Below are positions 3,984 to 32,923 of a stretch of DNA of 32,923 bases, in pieces. Both the position numbers and the translations under genes were made by a program. Below the pieces are notes generated by a model. The model made no database searches. It was given only the letters and a program-made list of their open reading frames with translations, and was not told the DNA's origin. The DNA is taken from NCBI GenBank assembly GCA_902812445.1, contig CADDZF010000016.1:1-32923 (forward strand), in the 5' to 3' direction. The stretch's first letter is position 1, and every line of letters starts with the position of its first letter. This DNA comes from Methylococcaceae bacterium (GTDB taxonomy: Bacteria > Pseudomonadota > Gammaproteobacteria > Methylococcales > Methylococcaceae).

Positions 3984-5129
3984 TTACTCCAGTTCTTTGC
4001 GCAGCCGCTCGTTGTTGAGGTGAAAGGCGCCGTCGGCGACGATGCGATCACCGGTCTTGATGCCATCGACGACCGGGAAAAAGCCTCCAACTTCTTTGCT
4101 CAGCGTGACCGGTTGAAGCTGAAACTGGTGGTCGTCGAGCTGGACGAAGACATAGTCCTCATCGCCGTCCCTCACCACCGCGCGCGCCGGCACCACCGCG
4201 ACGCGCCTACTCCTGTCCTTGATCAGCATGATGGCGAGCATTTCCGGCTTGATCGAGCGATCGGCGTTGGCCACTTCCATGTGTACCCGCAGAGTACGGG
4301 TTTTTGGATCGACCGCGTGGCTAACATAGATCAGCTTGCCATCGATGCGCCGGTCTGACAGGGCCGGAATCTCCGCCTCCACCCATTTGCCTTCGTGCAC
4401 CGACCCGGCCTGCTGTTCGGGCACTTCCGCTACCAGCCAGACGTGGGACAGGTCGGCCACGGTGAACAGCGCGTCCGCCGGTTGCACGACTTGTCCCAAG
4501 GCAATATTGCGCTCGATGACGGTACCGTCGGACGTCGCCAAGACGGGCGATAAGGAATGGATGGTGCGGGTTTTCGCCAGCTTGGCGACCGCATCCTCGG
4601 TCATGCCCAGGATCATCAGCTGGTTGGCCGCCGCGTGCAGTTCGGTCTCCGCTAGGACGTATTCACTCTCGCGCTTTTGCAGCTCCATCTCGCTGATGAC
4701 GCCGGATGTATATAAACGCTTCGCCCGCTCGGCGATACGCTGCTGCAAGCGTTTGCGCGAAGATGCCTTGAGATAGGCGAGCTGCGCTTCGGAGAGTTCG
4801 GGGCTATTCAGGCTGGCGAGCTCTTGACCGCGTATCACCTGTTGGCCAAGGACCGCCGAGATGCCCACCACACGCCCGGTCACAGTGGCCCCGATGCGAG
4901 CCACCCGGTGCCGGTCGATCTCGACCCGAGCCGGCATGCGTAACGCTTCGCCGACCTCGCTCTCGGTCACGGGCACGATTTTCAGGCGCTCGAGCATGCC
5001 GGGTTTTACCGTCACCAGCGCGGGATTGTCGTCTTTTTCGATCGTTAGCTCCGTATCGGCGCCGCCGTTATCCTGACAGCCATTCAAAACCGGTAGCAGA
5101 ACGATCAGCGCTATTTTTACAATCTGCAT
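3984..5129 (-). CDS. Periplasmic adaptor (membrane fusion) lipoprotein of RND system 1, CzcB/CusB family
   Basis: This 381-aa HlyD/CusB-type adaptor would bridge the RND pump at 882-3980 to an outer-membrane channel. The ATG at 5129 is preferred because it opens a lipoprotein signal peptide: a short hydrophobic stretch followed by the lipobox LNGC, Cys18. The frame stays open upstream to a TTG at 5168, but those 13 residues have no signal character. The body shows the expected order. A lipoyl/barrel half (GRVVGISAVLGQQVIRGQ) comes first, then an alpha-hairpin rich in Glu, Lys and Arg, then the second lipoyl half (GTVIERNIALGQVV). A beta-barrel with DPKTRTLRVHMEV and a C-terminal membrane-proximal domain follow. 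It is the first gene of a two-gene unit that diverges from system 2 across a 144-nt intergenic region. The metal is unknown. Confidence 0.93.
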   Translation of the reverse strand: MQIVKIALIVLLPVLNGCQDNGGADTELTIEKDDNPALVTVKPGMLERLKIVPVTESEVGEALRMPARVEIDRHRVARIGATVTGRVVGISAVLGQQVIRGQELASLNSPELSEAQLAYLKASSRKRLQQRIAERAKRLYTSGVISEMELQKRESEYVLAETELHAAANQLMILGMTEDAVAKLAKTRTIHSLSPVLATSDGTVIERNIALGQVVQPADALFTVADLSHVWLVAEVPEQQAGSVHEGKWVEAEIPALSDRRIDGKLIYVSHAVDPKTRTLRVHMEVANADRSIKPEMLAIMLIKDRSRRVAVVPARAVVRDGDEDYVFVQLDDHQFQLQPVTLSKEVGGFFPVVDGIKTGDRIVADGAFHLNNERLRKELE

Positions 5130-11483: not shown

Positions 11484-12359
11484 CTATAGATGAGCAATCG
11501 CCGTGAGTTCCCGCTGGGTGGCCCTTACCGCGCCGGGCAAATCGGGCGGAACCGGATGAATGGTTTTCTTGTACGCCGTGAGTATTCGGCGAACATAGCT
11601 TTGCGTTTCCGCGTAAGGCGGTACGTCCTTATACTGCTCAACCGCTCCCTCGCCGGCATTGTACGCCGCCAGCACCAGTTTGACGTTCCCCGCAAAGTGG
11701 CGCATCAACCAGTGCAGATAGGCCGTGCCGCCGATGATGTTTTCGATGGGATCCCACACGTCTTTGATACCGAAGCGCTCCGCCGTGGCGGGGATGAGTT
11801 GCATCAGTCCCTGGGCGTTTTTGTGCGACAGCGCGATGGCATTGAAGCCGGATTCGGCCTGAATCACGGCGAGGACCAGTTCGGGATCGATCGAGAATCT
11901 GGGCGCGATCTGGCGGGCCCAGCTCTCGATCGTCCGGTTTTCGGGCCTTGCAGAATCGCTCGGCGCCGTGGCCGGCGATCGACAATAGGGATCGCGCTCG
12001 CCGGCAACGCCCATATAGCGGCCCAACATCCGCGTCGCAAAACGGTCACCCGCAGCCGCGGCTCGCTTGAACCAGCCCAAGGCCAAGCCAATGTTCTGCT
12101 GGAATCCGCGGCCGTTGAAATACATCCATCCAAGGTTATAGGCAGCCGGGACATCGCCCAGCAGCGCGGCCTTGCAGTACAGTCGATAGGCTTCCTTATA
12201 ATCGACTTTAATCCCTCGTCCATGCTCATACCGGGTTGCCAACTGGCGCAGGCTCGCTGCTTCTGGGTTCACTCCATCCGTCCCGCTCGCGACCGACGAC
12301 AGAGCGAGCAGTATGCCGAACAGGGCCGTTTTGCAGTGCACGCCTGTCAATTCTTTCAC
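11484..12359 (-). CDS. Soluble lytic murein transglycosylase (SLT domain) with Sel1 repeats
   Basis: This 291-aa periplasmic enzyme would cleave the MurNAc-GlcNAc bond of peptidoglycan to give 1,6-anhydro products. The GTG at 12359 is preferred: AGGGGA lies about 5 nt upstream and it opens a signal peptide ending near residue 26 (LLALSSVASG). The frame remains open to an ATG at 12470, but those 37 residues lack export features. Two Sel1/TPR-like repeats follow (residues about 36-105, with GRGIKVDYKEAYRLYCKAAL and GRGFQQNIGLALGWFKRAAA). The family-1 SLT domain follows, with AVIQAESGFNA (catalytic E169), GLMQLIP (184-190) and AAYNAGEGAV (231-240). The Sel1 repeats probably mediate protein contacts. 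It converges with the efflux operon and belongs to no obvious operon. Confidence 0.9.
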   Translation of the reverse strand: MKELTGVHCKTALFGILLALSSVASGTDGVNPEAASLRQLATRYEHGRGIKVDYKEAYRLYCKAALLGDVPAAYNLGWMYFNGRGFQQNIGLALGWFKRAAAAGDRFATRMLGRYMGVAGERDPYCRSPATAPSDSARPENRTIESWARQIAPRFSIDPELVLAVIQAESGFNAIALSHKNAQGLMQLIPATAERFGIKDVWDPIENIIGGTAYLHWLMRHFAGNVKLVLAAYNAGEGAVEQYKDVPPYAETQSYVRRILTAYKKTIHPVPPDLPGAVRATQRELTAIAHL

Positions 12360-23597: not shown

Positions 23598-26519
23598 TCA
23601 CGCAGGGCGCCGATCGAGGGCGGAAGCCATAGCGCGCAGCAGCTCCGCTGTAGATTCCCGCACCGCGCCACTCGAAGCGCCCCGGCCAGCGGTCGCGGCA
23701 AGCCCTGCTTCGGCCCCGATCGGCACCAGAAAAGGCCGTTGTCGAGCCGCATCGGCGCAATAGAGTCCGGGATGCTGGCGCGGCAGCTTGCCGAACGCTT
23801 CGCGGACCCGCTCCAGAAATTCGGCATTGCTCACGCCGGTCAGTCCCTCGCGCAGCAGCCGCGTGGCCCGCACGGTGAAATCACCCTGGCCGCCGCTTTC
23901 CCAGGCCACTTCGCTGGACAGCGCCGCGGCGAACAGCACCTCCTTCATCAGGTTCGGCCCGCCCATGCCGAGAGCCCGGCCCAGGCCGCGCGTCGTACGG
24001 AAACGGCGGTGCGCATCGATCAGCTCGGGCGTGGCCATGATGAATCGCGGCCGCTCATCGGGACCTGCCTGATCCGCGCCGGGTGCAAGCCCGGCGACGA
24101 AGCGGGTGATCGTGCCGGAGTGACAGCAGTCGATAAAGCAGGTGACGTTCACCCCTTCTGGAATGCGGTCGAAGACTTCGCCGATGTCATCATCAATGAG
24201 AAAATGGCCTTCGGCGAAATCGTACGGACAAATGGCCTCATCCCGGCCGGGGGTATCGCCACCTGCCTCATCGCCATTGACGTCGGGCAGTGTCGTGCCG
24301 TGCCCCGAGTACTGGAACACGATAATATCACCCGCGCGGGTCGACCCTACCAACTGGGAAAGCTGGTCCAGGATGGCATTGTAATTGGCCTGCTCATCGA
24401 GGAGCAGGGTGGGTTGCTCGAAACCCAATCCCACCAGGCTCGCCGCCCAGCTTCGGGCATCGACCACGCACCCGTAGAGCGGCGCGGTCGGGTAGCGGTT
24501 GATGCCCACACATAGCGCGCGCTTGCGTCCCGCGACGGGAGCCTCCGCCGGGAGCGTGGGAGCGGCCGCTGCGGCACTCGGTTGCGGGGCTTGAGGTTGT
24601 GGCGGCGCCCGGAAGAATCCGACCAGCTCATCGGGAATGTCGACCTGGTTCGACCAGGAATACAGATCGCGGCCTCCGCGCTCGGATTCCGTGTAGGGCA
24701 CAATGGGGTCATTGTCGTCGGCGCCCAGGATTCGGCGGAGGGCGCTGTGCAGGGTGGGCGCGTCATCGTCGAATCCGCCGTGGCTGGTGGAGGCGCTGGC
24801 GCTGCGACCGGAGGTCGTCGGGGTCACCGCCCAGACCACTTCGCCCGCCCGTGCCGCGCCGCCCGACCCAGCGGTCAGCCCGAACAACTGCTTCAGCTCT
24901 GGATCGGAGCGAAGGCTGATCTCCAGCCCGAGCAGCGCGGTCCGAGGCTCCGGCTCGAGCGCGTAATAGATCAGATAAAGCAGGGATTTGTGATAAATAT
25001 TGGCGCACTGACCGTCGAGCTCCAGGTCTTTTTTCAGGGTGAACAGGGTCAGCTGCTCGATCCCCTTGCCGATGTGCGGGGCAAGCAGGGAATGGAAGGT
25101 ATCCGCCCGCAAGGCAGGGGCGAGAAAGTGCCCCGTGCGGAAGGGCGGCACGCCGAGTGCCAGCGCCGCGTTCACAAAGTGGGCATGAAAAACGGCGCCG
25201 GCGCTGTGGCCGATGGCGTGCAATTCCACGCTATCGCGATGCGTCTCGCAGAACGCCTGCAGTTTTTCAGCGACATAGCGGGCTCCGCCGTCGGCAGCGC
25301 TCGCCAGCTCGGCGCTGTACTTCATTCCCGACCAGATCCTTGGCCCTTGCAGCGAGCGCGCCACGGTTTCGATCACAGGGTCGGTAGTCCAATCCCACAA
25401 GTCTCGCGGGGCCACCCGGCGCACCGCCTCGCGGCTGCTTTCGAGCAGTTGCCGGATGGTCTCGAAGAAACCCGTTTCCCAGATGAAATAAATCGGATAG
25501 ATCCCATTCCTCCGCCACCACTGGATGTGCTTGCGGGCAATGGCGAGCCCATTCTCTTCGGAAACCAGACCGCCATGCGCGTAGAAAAGGATTCGTAGCG
25601 GTTCCCCCCGTGCCTTGGCGCTCGCGAGCTCCCGTTCCAGATGCTGCTCGAACATCGCGTCCACGTCCTCCCGTGTAGTTGCAAAGCGGCCTTCCGAAGA
25701 GAAGCGGCCTTGGTTCAGGTTGACGATGTGCGGCCGCAGTTCCGCCAACGCCTCCGGCGGCAGTTCGGCGCGCGGGCTATCAACTCCTCCGCGCCCGCCG
25801 GCAGCGCCGGCAAACAGCATGTCCAGCTCGCGCGCCGTCATGGCGTCCTCGCGCGGCTCGGCGTCCGCCGGATCAGTACGGCCCACATCCCGGCTGGCCG
25901 CTTCAACGAGGCGCCGCAGCCGGTCCTGGAAACCGGGCTCCGGGCTTTCCTTGCCCATTGCTTCGGCCTCGGCGCCGATGGCGAGGTCCTCTATATCGAG
26001 CGTGCCGTGCAACGCTTGCACCTCGTCCACTACCTGCTGGAAATCGATGGCACCGCCCGGGCAGGAGCTGGACGACATTTGACGGTGGAAGCACAGACTT
26101 CCCGGCGGCAGGCCGAACCGTTTCTGCAGCAGGACGATGACCCGCAGTGCGGCATCCCGCTGAGCGCCTTCGAAGCGATCACGCCCCTGATCGAAGTCGC
26201 CGATCAGCGTGAGCATGAACGGGCCTGCCGTGCGGTTTCCATTGTGTCCGGCGGCGCTGCAGGGCGGCAGATTCCAGTTCCGCCCGCTCCATAGCGTTCC
26301 ATCCGGGGCGATGGTGAGGTGCTGTGCGAGATCGCTCCAGCCGTTCGTCTGGGTGTCAAACCGCCACATGGCGATGAGACTGTCCTGTCCCCGGAACTGA
26401 CTGTGATCCGGACGCCAGCTATGGTGCAGGTGTACGGCGTTGATTTTGCGGGTGAAAGGGAATTCCTGCAGCAGGGCAGCGAATTCGTCCAGGGTGAATT
26501 GATGGAATGGCGCCGGCAT
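23598..26519 (-). CDS. Three-domain fusion: PGRP/amidase-like, alpha/beta-hydrolase and metacaspase (peptidase C14)
   Basis: This 973-aa protein has no signal peptide or membrane helix. Residues about 20-160 form an N-acetylmuramoyl-L-alanine amidase/PGRP-like domain. Likely zinc ligands are His33 (LHHSW), His145 and Cys153, the last two 8 apart as in T7 lysozyme. The usual catalytic Tyr of the GYH motif is Gln66 (LAQHLTIAPDG). Residues about 300-520 resemble an alpha/beta hydrolase: HGG at 315-317 as oxyanion loop and GHSAG at 437-441 with nucleophile Ser439. A Pro/Ala linker (639-662) leads to a caspase-like domain (664-925) with ALCVGINRYP, the dyad His740 in YSGHG and Cys799 in DCCHSG, and acidic GDEAGGD and DEAICPYDF segments. 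The ATG has GAGGAG upstream. It precedes the metalloprotease gene. Each domain is recognisable, but the role of the combination is unknown; sensor-plus-effector proteolysis is inferred. Confidence 0.88.
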   Translation of the reverse strand: MPAPFHQFTLDEFAALLQEFPFTRKINAVHLHHSWRPDHSQFRGQDSLIAMWRFDTQTNGWSDLAQHLTIAPDGTLWSGRNWNLPPCSAAGHNGNRTAGPFMLTLIGDFDQGRDRFEGAQRDAALRVIVLLQKRFGLPPGSLCFHRQMSSSSCPGGAIDFQQVVDEVQALHGTLDIEDLAIGAEAEAMGKESPEPGFQDRLRRLVEAASRDVGRTDPADAEPREDAMTARELDMLFAGAAGGRGGVDSPRAELPPEALAELRPHIVNLNQGRFSSEGRFATTREDVDAMFEQHLERELASAKARGEPLRILFYAHGGLVSEENGLAIARKHIQWWRRNGIYPIYFIWETGFFETIRQLLESSREAVRRVAPRDLWDWTTDPVIETVARSLQGPRIWSGMKYSAELASAADGGARYVAEKLQAFCETHRDSVELHAIGHSAGAVFHAHFVNAALALGVPPFRTGHFLAPALRADTFHSLLAPHIGKGIEQLTLFTLKKDLELDGQCANIYHKSLLYLIYYALEPEPRTALLGLEISLRSDPELKQLFGLTAGSGGAARAGEVVWAVTPTTSGRSASASTSHGGFDDDAPTLHSALRRILGADDNDPIVPYTESERGGRDLYSWSNQVDIPDELVGFFRAPPQPQAPQPSAAAAAPTLPAEAPVAGRKRALCVGINRYPTAPLYGCVVDARSWAASLVGLGFEQPTLLLDEQANYNAILDQLSQLVGSTRAGDIIVFQYSGHGTTLPDVNGDEAGGDTPGRDEAICPYDFAEGHFLIDDDIGEVFDRIPEGVNVTCFIDCCHSGTITRFVAGLAPGADQAGPDERPRFIMATPELIDAHRRFRTTRGLGRALGMGGPNLMKEVLFAAALSSEVAWESGGQGDFTVRATRLLREGLTGVSNAEFLERVREAFGKLPRQHPGLYCADAARQRPFLVPIGAEAGLAATAGRGASSGAVRESTAELLRAMASALDRRPA

Positions 26520-26657: not shown

Positions 26658-28112
26658 TCAAAGGGTCTTCAAATACTCGATCAGGACGGCTTTTTCCGCT
26701 GGCGGCAGCGACGTTCCGAAGTCATGGCCGGCGTTGCCGCCGGCGCGCTCGCTGACGTCATAGCGCGTGCCGTATTTCTCCGCTTCAGGTCCCGAGTAGA
26801 TGAAACCGACTTTGACAGGATCGTAAACATCGTAGCCTCGGTAAAATACCGCGGGGCGTTTTGCGGGCGGTTCCAGAAGGTCCTGTAGGCTCGGCACCGA
26901 GCCGTTGTGGAGATAAGGCGCGCGTAGCCAGATGCCGTCGAGATATTGGGCGACGTAGCCGACCAGGGGTGCCTCCACCAATCCCTTGCGCTCGATGCCC
27001 ATGCGCTTGACCACTTGATTCGCCGCGACGGCGTAGTCTTTTCCCCAGGTATCGATACGATCTCGATTGGTGCCGATTTCCGCCAGCGGCAAGGGCCGGC
27101 CGGTACGGTCGCTGGCATGGCAACGGGCGCAGTCGCGATCGAACACGGCTTTGCCCTGAGCGGCTTTCGCCGGGTCGATCGGGAAGGGAAAGCCCGGGGC
27201 CGGCTTGTTGCGAAGATAGTCCGTGAGCCAGTCCATCTGCGCCAGAAACTCCGCTTTGTGTTTTGGTCCCCGCTGGGTCCCCAACAGACCCAGCGCCGAA
27301 TCGACGATCACCGAATAGGCATCGTGCGAATCTCCCGCCCAGTTGAGCTGGCTCGGTTCCGGATCGTACTTCTTCAGATTCCAGATCGATGGCATGTCGG
27401 TGGGTCCAAACGTGTCATCCATGGGCGTTTCGATCATGAAGTACTTGGTCAGATTCATGGCATCATCGCGACCACGGCCCCATTCCGGAAAGTCAGATCG
27501 ATAAATCCAGGCGAACTGCCGCTCGCGCTCGATCAATCGTTTCTTGGTGACGGGAATGAGCAGATACTTGTAGGCAAGCTTGTCGAACCACGAGAGTTCT
27601 GTCGCGTTGAGGATTTCCCACAACACGTTCTCGCCGTTGAAGCGGGGGTCCTTGGCGCAGTCGATGTAGAAACGGAAAAAGCCTTCCACGTTAGTCGTAT
27701 GCGCGGGCGCGGCCGTGACGAAGGTCGGATTCTCGTTAACACCCTTGCGGTAGCTCGCGGTGTGGCATACCGCGCAATTGTTGGCGACGCGCGGAAAGCC
27801 GATGACTTTCTTGGTGAATCCTACCGGAAGTTCCTGGCCTTGTTCCCACGGCACCCCGAGGGAGGCATAACCGCCGGGACCGGGAAGTTTTTCCGGGAAC
27901 ATGCGCGGCAAAACCATAAAAATCCAGTACGGAATGCCGGCGTCCCATTCAGCGCCAAGCGATCCGTACTTGAAGCGGGTGTCCGGGTCCTGATTGACCC
28001 ACTCCGGCTGCGGCTCTTCGCGGAAGAACTTGTACCAGCCGATGAAGAGGCCGGCGCCGACCAATAGCGTAATGAGCATCAGCGCGATAGTGATCTTCTC
28101 CTGCTTGGTCAT
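26658..28112 (-). CDS. Membrane-anchored diheme c-type cytochrome, RoxA-like
   Basis: This 484-aa protein has one N-terminal membrane helix (residues 7-27) and a periplasmic body. It has two covalent heme c sites, CAVCH (C113, C116, H117) and CARCH (C328, C331, H332). Between and after them are DMPSIWNLKKYDP, PFPIDPAKAAQGKAVF and DGIWLRAPYLHNGSVPSL, a block seen in large diheme cytochromes related to the rubber oxygenase RoxA and, more distantly, to diheme peroxidases. It is about 70 residues shorter than its neighbour at 28127-29782 and clearly paralogous to it. AGGAGG lies 8 nt before the ATG, 14 nt after the neighbour's stop. It probably transfers electrons from the GMC oxidoreductase encoded upstream, or is itself an oxygenase or peroxidase; the sequence does not decide. 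Confidence 0.88.
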   Translation of the reverse strand: MTKQEKITIALMLITLLVGAGLFIGWYKFFREEPQPEWVNQDPDTRFKYGSLGAEWDAGIPYWIFMVLPRMFPEKLPGPGGYASLGVPWEQGQELPVGFTKKVIGFPRVANNCAVCHTASYRKGVNENPTFVTAAPAHTTNVEGFFRFYIDCAKDPRFNGENVLWEILNATELSWFDKLAYKYLLIPVTKKRLIERERQFAWIYRSDFPEWGRGRDDAMNLTKYFMIETPMDDTFGPTDMPSIWNLKKYDPEPSQLNWAGDSHDAYSVIVDSALGLLGTQRGPKHKAEFLAQMDWLTDYLRNKPAPGFPFPIDPAKAAQGKAVFDRDCARCHASDRTGRPLPLAEIGTNRDRIDTWGKDYAVAANQVVKRMGIERKGLVEAPLVGYVAQYLDGIWLRAPYLHNGSVPSLQDLLEPPAKRPAVFYRGYDVYDPVKVGFIYSGPEAEKYGTRYDVSERAGGNAGHDFGTSLPPAEKAVLIEYLKTL

Positions 28113-28126
28113 CTGGGCACCCTCCT

Positions 28127-29782
28127 TTAGAAAGTTTTCAGGTATTCGAGCAGTGCGGTTTTATCCCCATCCGACAAGTCGGTTCCGTAGGCCGGCCCCT
28201 CGTGTCCCCGATTGCCGTTTCCGGGAATCGAAGTATCAAAGTAAAAGAACTTGCGTCCGTTTTCTTCCGGGATATCGGCCTTAAAGCCTACCTGAGCCGG
28301 GTCATACACGTCGTTGCCGCGATAGAACGCCAGCGGTCGCTCACCAGCGCGTTGCAAAAGCGCGCGCAGGTTCGGCACGGATCCGTTGTGCAGATAGGGC
28401 GCCCTGAGCCAGATTCCGTCGAGGGGCATGTTGGCGTAGCCGTAGGTCTTGCGAAAGTGAGAGAAGCGGTACGGAGTGCCGGCGTAAAGCGTGCCCTGGT
28501 TGACCGCCAGATCGTAGACATAATTGTCAAGGCGGTGACGGTCGGTGCCGATCGCCTCGATGGGAGTCACGAAGCCGACCCGGGCGCCGGTGAAATCGCG
28601 GCCGCTATTTCCGTGACAATCCGCGCAGTACCGCTGGTAGAGCGGTTCGCCCTGGGCGGCGAGCGGGGCGTTGATGGGATAGGGATAAGGCGGCGGCGCA
28701 AAGGTGAGCAGCCAATCCTCGATGCGGCCGACCGCCGCATGATCGATGATCGGCGGCAAGGCGCCGGTTCCGAAGGCCGCGCTCAGATTGCGTTCTTCCA
28801 CCTTGTCGTTGTTGCCATCCCAGTGCAGCTGCATCTGCGCTCCGTCCGCCCGTTTCTTCCGGGCGGCCTGCAGCCAGATGGAAGGAAAATCCGCAGTACC
28901 CACCGATTCAGGATCGACCTTTCGCTCCGTCGACCAGCCGGGCAGGTTCTTCCACGGCCAGGCGAAAATGCCCTTGGCGTTGCTGAAGGTATCCACCCGG
29001 CCTGGGCCCCAGGCCGGCTGCTTATAGAAAAACCCGAGCCGGCTGGCGAGAAACTGCACCCGATCACGCATCAGCCAGATGGCGTTGGGATAGACCAAGG
29101 TCCGGTCGAGCAGGTCGAGATCGCCTCCCAGATAGCCAACCTCGGGGAGCAGAGCATGCTTGTTGAACTGTTCATCATCGGTGCAGCGGAAGAAGAAGTC
29201 CTCGAACCGGTTCAGATCGAACAGATTGGCCGGCATGCCGAGCACCAGCCGCGGCTCACTGTCCGGGGTATCTCGTACCGTACTGGTATGGCAAGCCGCG
29301 CAATTGAGGAAGACCCGGTCGAGTCCAAAATTCCTCCGTTTCGACACGCCCACGGGCAAATCCTTGTCCCGTCCATCCAGGCCTTTCTCGTAGATCAATC
29401 CGAGGGATTTGTAACCCTCTCTGGACAGGGCGAGACGCTCGGCCGCACCGTCCCGCGCGGCATGGGCAGCGACCCGCGCCCGATAGTCCGGCGCCAGGCG
29501 ATCAGCCGGGAGGTAGTCCGGGCATAGCAAGGGCGCGGCCTGCCAGATCCAATACGGAAACCCGAGATTTACCTCGCCCCCCGTCGAACCATACTTGAAG
29601 TGCTCCTGGATGGCATCGTAGCGCACCGCTCGATTGGGAAGAAAACGGATCGCCGCGTAGAGCAGCATCCCCAACACGAGGAGAGTGACGACGGTCGATG
29701 TGACTATCCAGGCAGTGAGCGCTTTTTGCGTCCAGTAGATCCGCCTGGCGCCGTCTTCCGGTTGTTGTTCTGGGTATTTCAT
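28127..29782 (-). CDS. Membrane-anchored diheme c-type cytochrome, RoxA-like (longer paralogue)
   Basis: This 551-aa protein has an N-terminal membrane helix (about residues 24-46) after a short cytoplasmic tail, then a periplasmic domain. Its heme c motifs are CAACH (C161, C164, H165) and CADCH (C386, C389, H390). Shared with its neighbour are FKYGSTGGE, the GFPYWIW segment, TADFPSIWLQ, YPYPINAPLAAQGEPLY, LDGIWLRAPYLHNGSVPNLR and the C-terminal LLEYLKTF. GPGRVDTF and LHWDGNNDKVEERN are further marks of the RoxA-like diheme group. RoxA cleaves polyisoprene, but most relatives have unknown roles, so catalysis should not be assumed. AGAGG precedes the ATG. It is 14 nt from the next cytochrome gene, giving a firm two-gene unit. 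Confidence 0.88.
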   Translation of the reverse strand: MKYPEQQPEDGARRIYWTQKALTAWIVTSTVVTLLVLGMLLYAAIRFLPNRAVRYDAIQEHFKYGSTGGEVNLGFPYWIWQAAPLLCPDYLPADRLAPDYRARVAAHAARDGAAERLALSREGYKSLGLIYEKGLDGRDKDLPVGVSKRRNFGLDRVFLNCAACHTSTVRDTPDSEPRLVLGMPANLFDLNRFEDFFFRCTDDEQFNKHALLPEVGYLGGDLDLLDRTLVYPNAIWLMRDRVQFLASRLGFFYKQPAWGPGRVDTFSNAKGIFAWPWKNLPGWSTERKVDPESVGTADFPSIWLQAARKKRADGAQMQLHWDGNNDKVEERNLSAAFGTGALPPIIDHAAVGRIEDWLLTFAPPPYPYPINAPLAAQGEPLYQRYCADCHGNSGRDFTGARVGFVTPIEAIGTDRHRLDNYVYDLAVNQGTLYAGTPYRFSHFRKTYGYANMPLDGIWLRAPYLHNGSVPNLRALLQRAGERPLAFYRGNDVYDPAQVGFKADIPEENGRKFFYFDTSIPGNGNRGHEGPAYGTDLSDGDKTALLEYLKTF

Positions 29783-30947: not shown

Positions 30948-32923
30948 TCATCGGCTCATCGATGCTCGAGTCGCCGGGTGCCATACGTTTTCTTGAGCCT
31001 CTTCGATAATCACGTCGCTGGCCTTCTCGCTGATCATGTACACGGCCGAGACAATGAAAAAGCCGGGTATTTTGGGAAACACGGACGCATCGACCACCCG
31101 TAGACCCCGGGCCCCGTGGACCCGGAATCGGCTGTCGACCACGGCCGCCGGATCCCCTGCAGGGCCCATCTTGCAGGTGCACGAGGCATGGTGCCCCCAA
31201 GCGTTATCCTTGACGAACTGACGGATTTTCTCGCGCGTATCGAAATGGCCTCCCGGCACGGCTTCCTCTTCGATAAACCCTTTGCATCATTCGTTGATGC
31301 GGCGGACGGTTTCCACCCCGGAGACCACCGATTCCAGATCGTCGCCCGAGTGATCCGAGCCTTCCTCGAAATAATGAAAATTGATATCTGGCCTGTCGCG
31401 AGGATCGGCGGAGCGCAGCGTCACCCGGCCCGCCGTATTGTTGATATGGCCCTTGAGGATGGCCCAGGTGAAAAAGTTCTTGTCTCTCACCACGGCTTTC
31501 GAATAGCCCGGAAAATAGCCCTTGAAATAGCCCAGCATGCCGAAAATGAATAGATCAGGATCCAGTCGCTCCGGAAAGGAACGCTTCATCAAGGCGATCA
31601 CGCCGCCGTTGGTGGTATAGGGCCCCTTGCCCTGGAGCCATGCGAGAAATTGGCGATCGGGTTTTTGACCGCCTTCCGGCGCATGAAACACCATGTCCTT
31701 GAGGAGAGCGAATTCACTTTTAAAGCGCGAAACCACGCCCACCTCGTAGCGATCCTGCAGATTCTCGCCGACGCCAGCCAGATCGAGCTTGACCGGGATG
31801 CCGAAGCGTTCCAGCTCCGCTCTTGGGCCGATGCCCGACAACTTGAGCAGTTGCGGCGTATTGAATGCGCCTCCTGCCAGAATGACCTCCCGGCGGGCTG
31901 CAACGGTATGCTTGGAATAGAGCGCGTCCTCTCGGTAGCGCGGGTCGGCCTGATACAAATGCAGGCCGGCAAAATATTCGACGCCGGTGGCGCGGTTGTC
32001 CTCGTCCAGTATCACCCGCGTCACCAGCGCGTGGGTCTTGACCACCAGATTGTTCGAGCAAGCGCGTTGTACGCGCCGGATATAGTCCCGGCTGCCGGCC
32101 CGTTCCCCGCGGTACGTGGTGATGGGAATCACGCAAATACCTTCGGAACTCTGCTCGACCAGGCGCCAGTCGTTCGGATCGAAGCGGCTTCTGAGCCGCC
32201 CGATCACCCGCGTAATGGGCCGTCCCAGCGCGAAATAGGATTCCCTCAGCGCGGCTCTGACCAGGCGGCCCAAGGCCTTGTCATGCACGATCATGGATGG
32301 GTCGGCGACGGTCGTCGTCAGCCAGCCGCGAAAACCATGGCGACTCTCGGTTTCCGACGGATCGACATACTCGCAGCGTTCCAGCCGTTCGAAGTAACGG
32401 CGCATGTTTGCGCTGCGCCACGATACATCGCCGGTGAGATCGGCGATGTAATCCCAGTCGCTGTTTTGGGGATAGACGAAAATCATCGCGTTGTGCGCAG
32501 TGCAGCCACCTAGGGTGCCGGCCCGCGGATAGAGCACGCCGCCCCGCCCGGGCCGGAACTTTTCATCGCGCCGCTGGCGCTGTTCATCGGCATAGTGGCG
32601 CACAAAAAAGTCCCAGCGCAGCCGCTCGTCTTCCGATGCCTGGGCATGAAAAGCGGGGACACGATAGTTGTACGGCTCGTCGGCGCCGCCCGCTTCGAGC
32701 AGCAAGACCCGGAATCCGGCCAACGCCAGATTGGCGGCCAGGGGACCGCCCCCTGCCCCCGAGCCGACCACGATGTAGTCGAATGCTTCGCCTTCGCGAG
32801 GCGCACAACGGAGCGGTGCAAAAGGCCTCGGGGTAGTTGGCGGCTTGAGAAACGAAGCGCAGCCGGAAAACAGGGCGGCGAGACTCGGCAGGCAAGCCGC
32901 GCCGAACTGGACAAAACGGCGCC
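30948..32923 (-). pseudogene. GMC family FAD-dependent oxidoreductase, Tat-type lipoprotein, interrupted by an in-frame TGA; 5' end outside the window
   Basis: The reading frame enters from the right edge. The first visible codons give RRFVQFGAACLPSLAALF then SGC, which reads as a twin-arginine signal ending in a lipobox (Cys21 of the visible part). FDYIVVGSGAGGGPLAANLA (FAD site), AGTLGGCTAHNAMIFVYP and FNTPQLLKLSGIGPRAEL follow, all GMC hallmarks. At visible codon 545 (31287-31289) a TGA interrupts the frame just after ETVRRINE. The same frame continues for 112 codons with AWGHHASCTCKMGPAGDP, RGLRVVDASVFPKIPGFFIV and MISEKASDVI, the C-terminal catalytic part. No other lesion is seen. Without readthrough, the product lacks the catalytic His segment. 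This may be a recent nonsense mutation, a sequence error (for instance CGA read as TGA) or readthrough. An intact protein would oxidise an alcohol-type substrate at the membrane. Confidence 0.88.

Follow-up and report, generated by a model that had tools for sequence, protein, structure and literature searches.

The window analyzed here (the entire contig C16, 32,923 nucleotides, of a 3.21 Mb, 260-contig draft assembly of a Methylococcaceae bacterium) carries a minus-strand GMC oxidoreductase frame which, in the reading of its ORFs, is broken by an in-frame TGA. The features of the locus (positions in the window) are:

30948..32921, minus strand: GMC oxidoreductase reading frame with one internal TGA, delineated from ORFs and Pfam matches; its 5' end is off the contig
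31290..32921, minus strand: 544 open codons 5' of the TGA, with a Tat/lipoprotein-like N-terminus (RRF ... SGC) seen in the translation
31287..31289, minus strand: the in-frame TGA, at position 545 of the translation
30951..31286, minus strand: 112 open codons 3' of the TGA, a conserved GMC C-terminus with WGHHASC (translation and alignments)
30948..31259, minus strand: possible restart ORF (GTG, 103 aa) downstream of the TGA, a purely mechanical ORF call
31284..31300, no strand assigned: perfect inverted repeat with 6-bp arms and a 5-base loop, the TGA being in the 3' arm in the minus-strand reading
26658-28112 and 28127-29782, minus strand: two RoxA-like cytochrome c genes (Pfam PF21419 in both), downstream of the GMC gene

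The frame continues past the TGA to its own stop codon (30948-30950), so that both the TGA at 31287-31289 and the 112 open codons beyond it, as reported in a preliminary description of this DNA, are corroborated. Read with an X at the TGA, it matches Pfam GMC_oxred_N (PF00732; residues 129-392, 81.3 bits vs. a cut-off of 23) and GMC_oxred_C (PF05199; residues 496-630, 106.9 bits vs. a cut-off of 24.6), the latter as a single domain spanning the TGA at residue 545; a whole-genome Pfam search also marks one TGA within the GMC_oxred_C match. The GC3 value is 0.72 before the TGA and 0.71 after it. As frame, GC3, and homology all carry on past the TGA, the interruption is more than a product of chance. 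The gene had been described as otherwise intact, which holds for this continuity but not for completeness, since the gene is cut at the contig end and its start codon is outside the contig (the frame is open from 32921). In the whole-genome Pfam search, the interrupted gene was the sole GMC_oxred_C match, and no second intact copy was found in the genome.

Judged by its sequence, the encoded protein is a member of the GMC oxidoreductase superfamily, with both domains well over their Pfam cut-offs, and it differs from other members in the one TGA inside PF05199. Its WGHHASC and FPxIPGxFIVS motifs at the C-terminus are traits of a subfamily, and the HHASC segment previously pointed out after the TGA is indeed there: each residue of WGHHASC (W, G, H, H, A, S, and C) is shared by all 31 aligned relatives. 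This subfamily, as characterized from window positions 30951-32921 and 31 relatives among loci L011-L029, L040-L056, and L058, extends across distant bacteria and combines an invariant WGHHASC with a conserved FPxIPGxFIVSxxYM C-terminus and Tat/lipoprotein-like N-termini. The RRF ... SGC N-terminus, similar patterns of which occur in the relatives, is what we take to be a Tat/lipoprotein-like signal, and the gene probably encoded an exported, lipid-anchored GMC-type flavoprotein dehydrogenase or oxidase. The best NCBIfam matches are to choline dehydrogenase BetA (216.5 bits for TIGR01810 and 260.5 bits for NF002550); assignment as a BetA equivalog was rejected at the respective cut-offs of 732.1 and 605, and in the same NCBIfam search the protein scored under the cut-off of the MftG model. 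The best solved relative by sequence is fatty acid photodecarboxylase (PDB 5ncc, 7av4; phmmer E = 5.2e-48); in a phmmer alignment of low identity, gapped in this region, its active-site Cys and Arg do not appear in the window protein.

Relatives for a comparison of homologous loci were drawn from 200 genomes besides the organism's own, a 398-genome phylum draw (own genome included), and 20 named loci. Altogether 78 loci (49 plus 29 more) were aligned to the window protein, the phylum draw having listed further matches beyond these; the multiple alignment comprises 31 of the 49, with fragments, distant members, and some near-duplicates left out. The same TGA in relatives, envisaged earlier as a sign of recoding, did not appear in this codon comparison: none of the 78 loci carries a stop in the residue 545 column, and the other stops in these alignments fall near alignment ends (query residues 642-647 and 14-35). 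Identity to the best relatives is about 60–62%. Within this sequence set of 78 loci, none of them same-genus, the TGA is private to one assembly. Since the homologous loci lack the stop, the gene does exist in uninterrupted form, and a single substitution suffices to account for the TGA. The site itself is variable and length-polymorphic, with two extra residues in several relatives. Origin by a frameshift or indel was nevertheless rejected, because the closest relatives (L011, L058, L040, L041, and L095; 59–62% identical) align gap-free with sense codons at the TGA, and no indel is needed; the earlier proposal that one base change explains the TGA is consistent with this alignment. In L042, a second GMC C-terminal match (11531-11866; 61.6% identical over residues 531-642), which has no matching N-terminal part, was observed on the same contig as the full copy.

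The part after the TGA does not appear to be decaying, in agreement with the preliminary description. The identity after minus before the TGA averages +0.102 between the window and its relatives (n = 31 pairs) vs. +0.081 (sd 0.049, n = 461 pairs) among the relatives, a set from which pairs at least 90% identical before the stop were dropped. This difference is not reduced, and therefore the post-TGA part is not diverging faster. The comparison relatives being distant, such a lack of decay would exclude an old lesion but leave room for a moderately recent one. Pointing the other way, the first 80 codons after the TGA have a low codon-usage score of 0.07, under the genome (training) median of 0.160 and over the 5th percentile of 0.033.

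We favor, with a probability of about 0.6, a nonsense substitution that is recent, private, and either fixed in the population or polymorphic; most likely, the TGA is an ordinary finding and not a special decoding trick. A recent single-base substitution in the lineage or strain would have introduced the TGA some 100 residues short of the C-terminus, ribosomes would stop there with RF2, and the product would be released without the invariant WGHHASC and without the C-terminal portion of the GMC fold, a loss that would very likely render it inactive. The premature stop removes a conserved part of the protein (WGHHASC, invariant in 31/31), as in a pseudogene, and the GMC gene may thus be viewed as a very young nonsense pseudogene, or a population polymorphism, provided that the base is real and the change recent. 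What was observed directly is the TGA, its restriction to this assembly, the lack of decay in the rest of the gene, and the absence of detectable recoding machinery. Recency would follow from the lack of decay in comparison with relatives that share no more than about 62% identity; a gene still in use, or an error of assembly, would be expected to leave the rest of the frame just as undecayed. Among the explanations initially offered (a recent lesion, an artefact, or readthrough), the first two both remain. For annotation purposes, the gene is to be called interrupted pending reads, not a shorter enzyme. As to the source of the substitution, template switching in imperfect palindromes can yield such changes, and the inverted repeat at 31284..31300 is suggestive in this respect, but only a hint, because such arms make up 2.5% of the bases in the window.

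The main rival to a nonsense substitution is a consensus or assembly error, i.e., a sense codon in the organism and a contig that is wrong at one base, which we regard as possible at clearly less than even odds. A sequencing error or strain chimaera may occur in a 260-contig draft, and the position of the gene at the contig end, where it is cut, the intact rest of the frame, and the private stop would all fit this explanation, against which speaks the lack of any excess of interrupted genes in the assembly. Indeed, all 61 ABC_tran and ACR_tran matches are uninterrupted (a stop in 0/53 and 0/8, respectively), and at none of the 17 in-frame stop junctions sampled outside the window does a Pfam domain cross the stop. 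These junctions have coding-like sequence on both sides and are mostly neighboring genes, one without any domain and some with one-sided domains; an eighteenth pair, located in the window (3984-3986), is not in the count, its two ORFs having been scanned apart. Pfam was used on the 17 non-window pairs because a codon-score scan for interrupted genes turned out to be a weak discriminator: the GMC pair itself failed the filter, and under laxer thresholds 92 of 381 pairs passed, mostly shadow frames or neighboring genes by our reading. Interruptions of genes are thus uncommon in the assembly, the GMC gene standing out as a true exception, and this scarcity weighs slightly against an assembly of generally poor quality.

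A functional split gene, in which the N-terminal piece would join with a product restarted at the GTG (31259) to form an active enzyme, appears improbable. The GTG is 27 bases past the stop and has a purine-rich stretch upstream, but this stretch codes for part of a region that is likewise acidic in several of the relatives, and it may be a coincidence. Moreover, a stop at this position is found in 0/78 of the relatives' loci, and WGHHASC is present only on the downstream piece, which would be without an export signal.

Even less credit can be given to programmed or tolerated UGA readthrough (near-cognate or selenocysteine) producing a full-length protein. The conserved frame downstream of the TGA would be in its favor, and conserved bacterial genes with in-frame stops are on record: one survey describes such stops under purifying selection across bacteria and terms UGA a leaky stop (Belinky et al., 2021; PMC7918605). 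The window gene resembles those cases in that a gene conserved in other respects has one in-frame stop; in the survey, however, the stops recur at the same orthologue position, whereas the stop in the window is private to one assembly. With the stop missing from 78 of 78 homologous loci, none same-genus, a conserved readthrough gene was rejected, and the variable site with its length differences is not a conserved Cys/Sec-type position. Selenocysteine was likewise rejected: the genome has no match to SelA and none to SelB over the cut-off (best 99 bits vs. 242), and its one tRNA-Sec match, with 47.1 bits just at the gathering score of 47, is identified by ARAGORN as a tRNA-Ser with the anticodon tga. 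When all genome tRNA matches were given anticodons by ARAGORN, 0/43 had the TCA anticodon of a UGA suppressor; no tRNA-Ile was found among these 43, so that the assembly misses some tRNAs. Genome-wide UGA reassignment was rejected as well, RF2 being present (497.8 bits) and TGA terminating 97 of the 201 long training ORFs with a stop inside the sampled sequence (400 kb plus the window; 209 long ORFs, 8 running off the sequence) and dividing distinct domains at gene boundaries (e.g., MoaD-like/MoaE, YidC/TrmE, NuoE/NuoF). RNA folding around the TGA is unremarkable (z = 0.51, -1.11, and -1.05), with no indication of a stimulatory structure, and the base after the TGA is T, a poor readthrough context in E. 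coli. Tolerance by readthrough, as suggested at the outset, is thus unsupported in terms of both the 78 loci and the selenocysteine or UGA-reading tRNA machinery. That UGA is decoded in this gene at a useful frequency without selenocysteine machinery, giving a truncated exported and a full-length GMC form, would be quite a surprise; if true, it would be an example of UGA being decoded in an environmental bacterium by means other than the selenocysteine system, and nothing here points there. A literature search listed no work specifically about an in-frame stop in this enzyme.

Among the neighbors of the GMC gene, the RoxA-like cytochromes are possible electron acceptors of the GMC enzyme; RoxA-like genes are also near the homologue in 2 of the 13 loci compared (L070 and L073). 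Elsewhere in the window, one ORF (23598-26519) encodes both a caspase domain (PF00656) and an Amidase_2 domain (PF01510). A small contig of the same genome (C190 of G000) carries the tRNAs Pro-tgg, Gly-tcc, Arg-tct, and His-gtg, whose anticodons repeat those on contigs C25 and C2, and is perhaps a mobile element or a foreign contig. Finally, the segment 14159-17197 of the window contains radical SAM/SPASM, TENA/PQQC family, and beta-lactamase-fold genes, which, in our reading, look like genes of PQQ biosynthesis.
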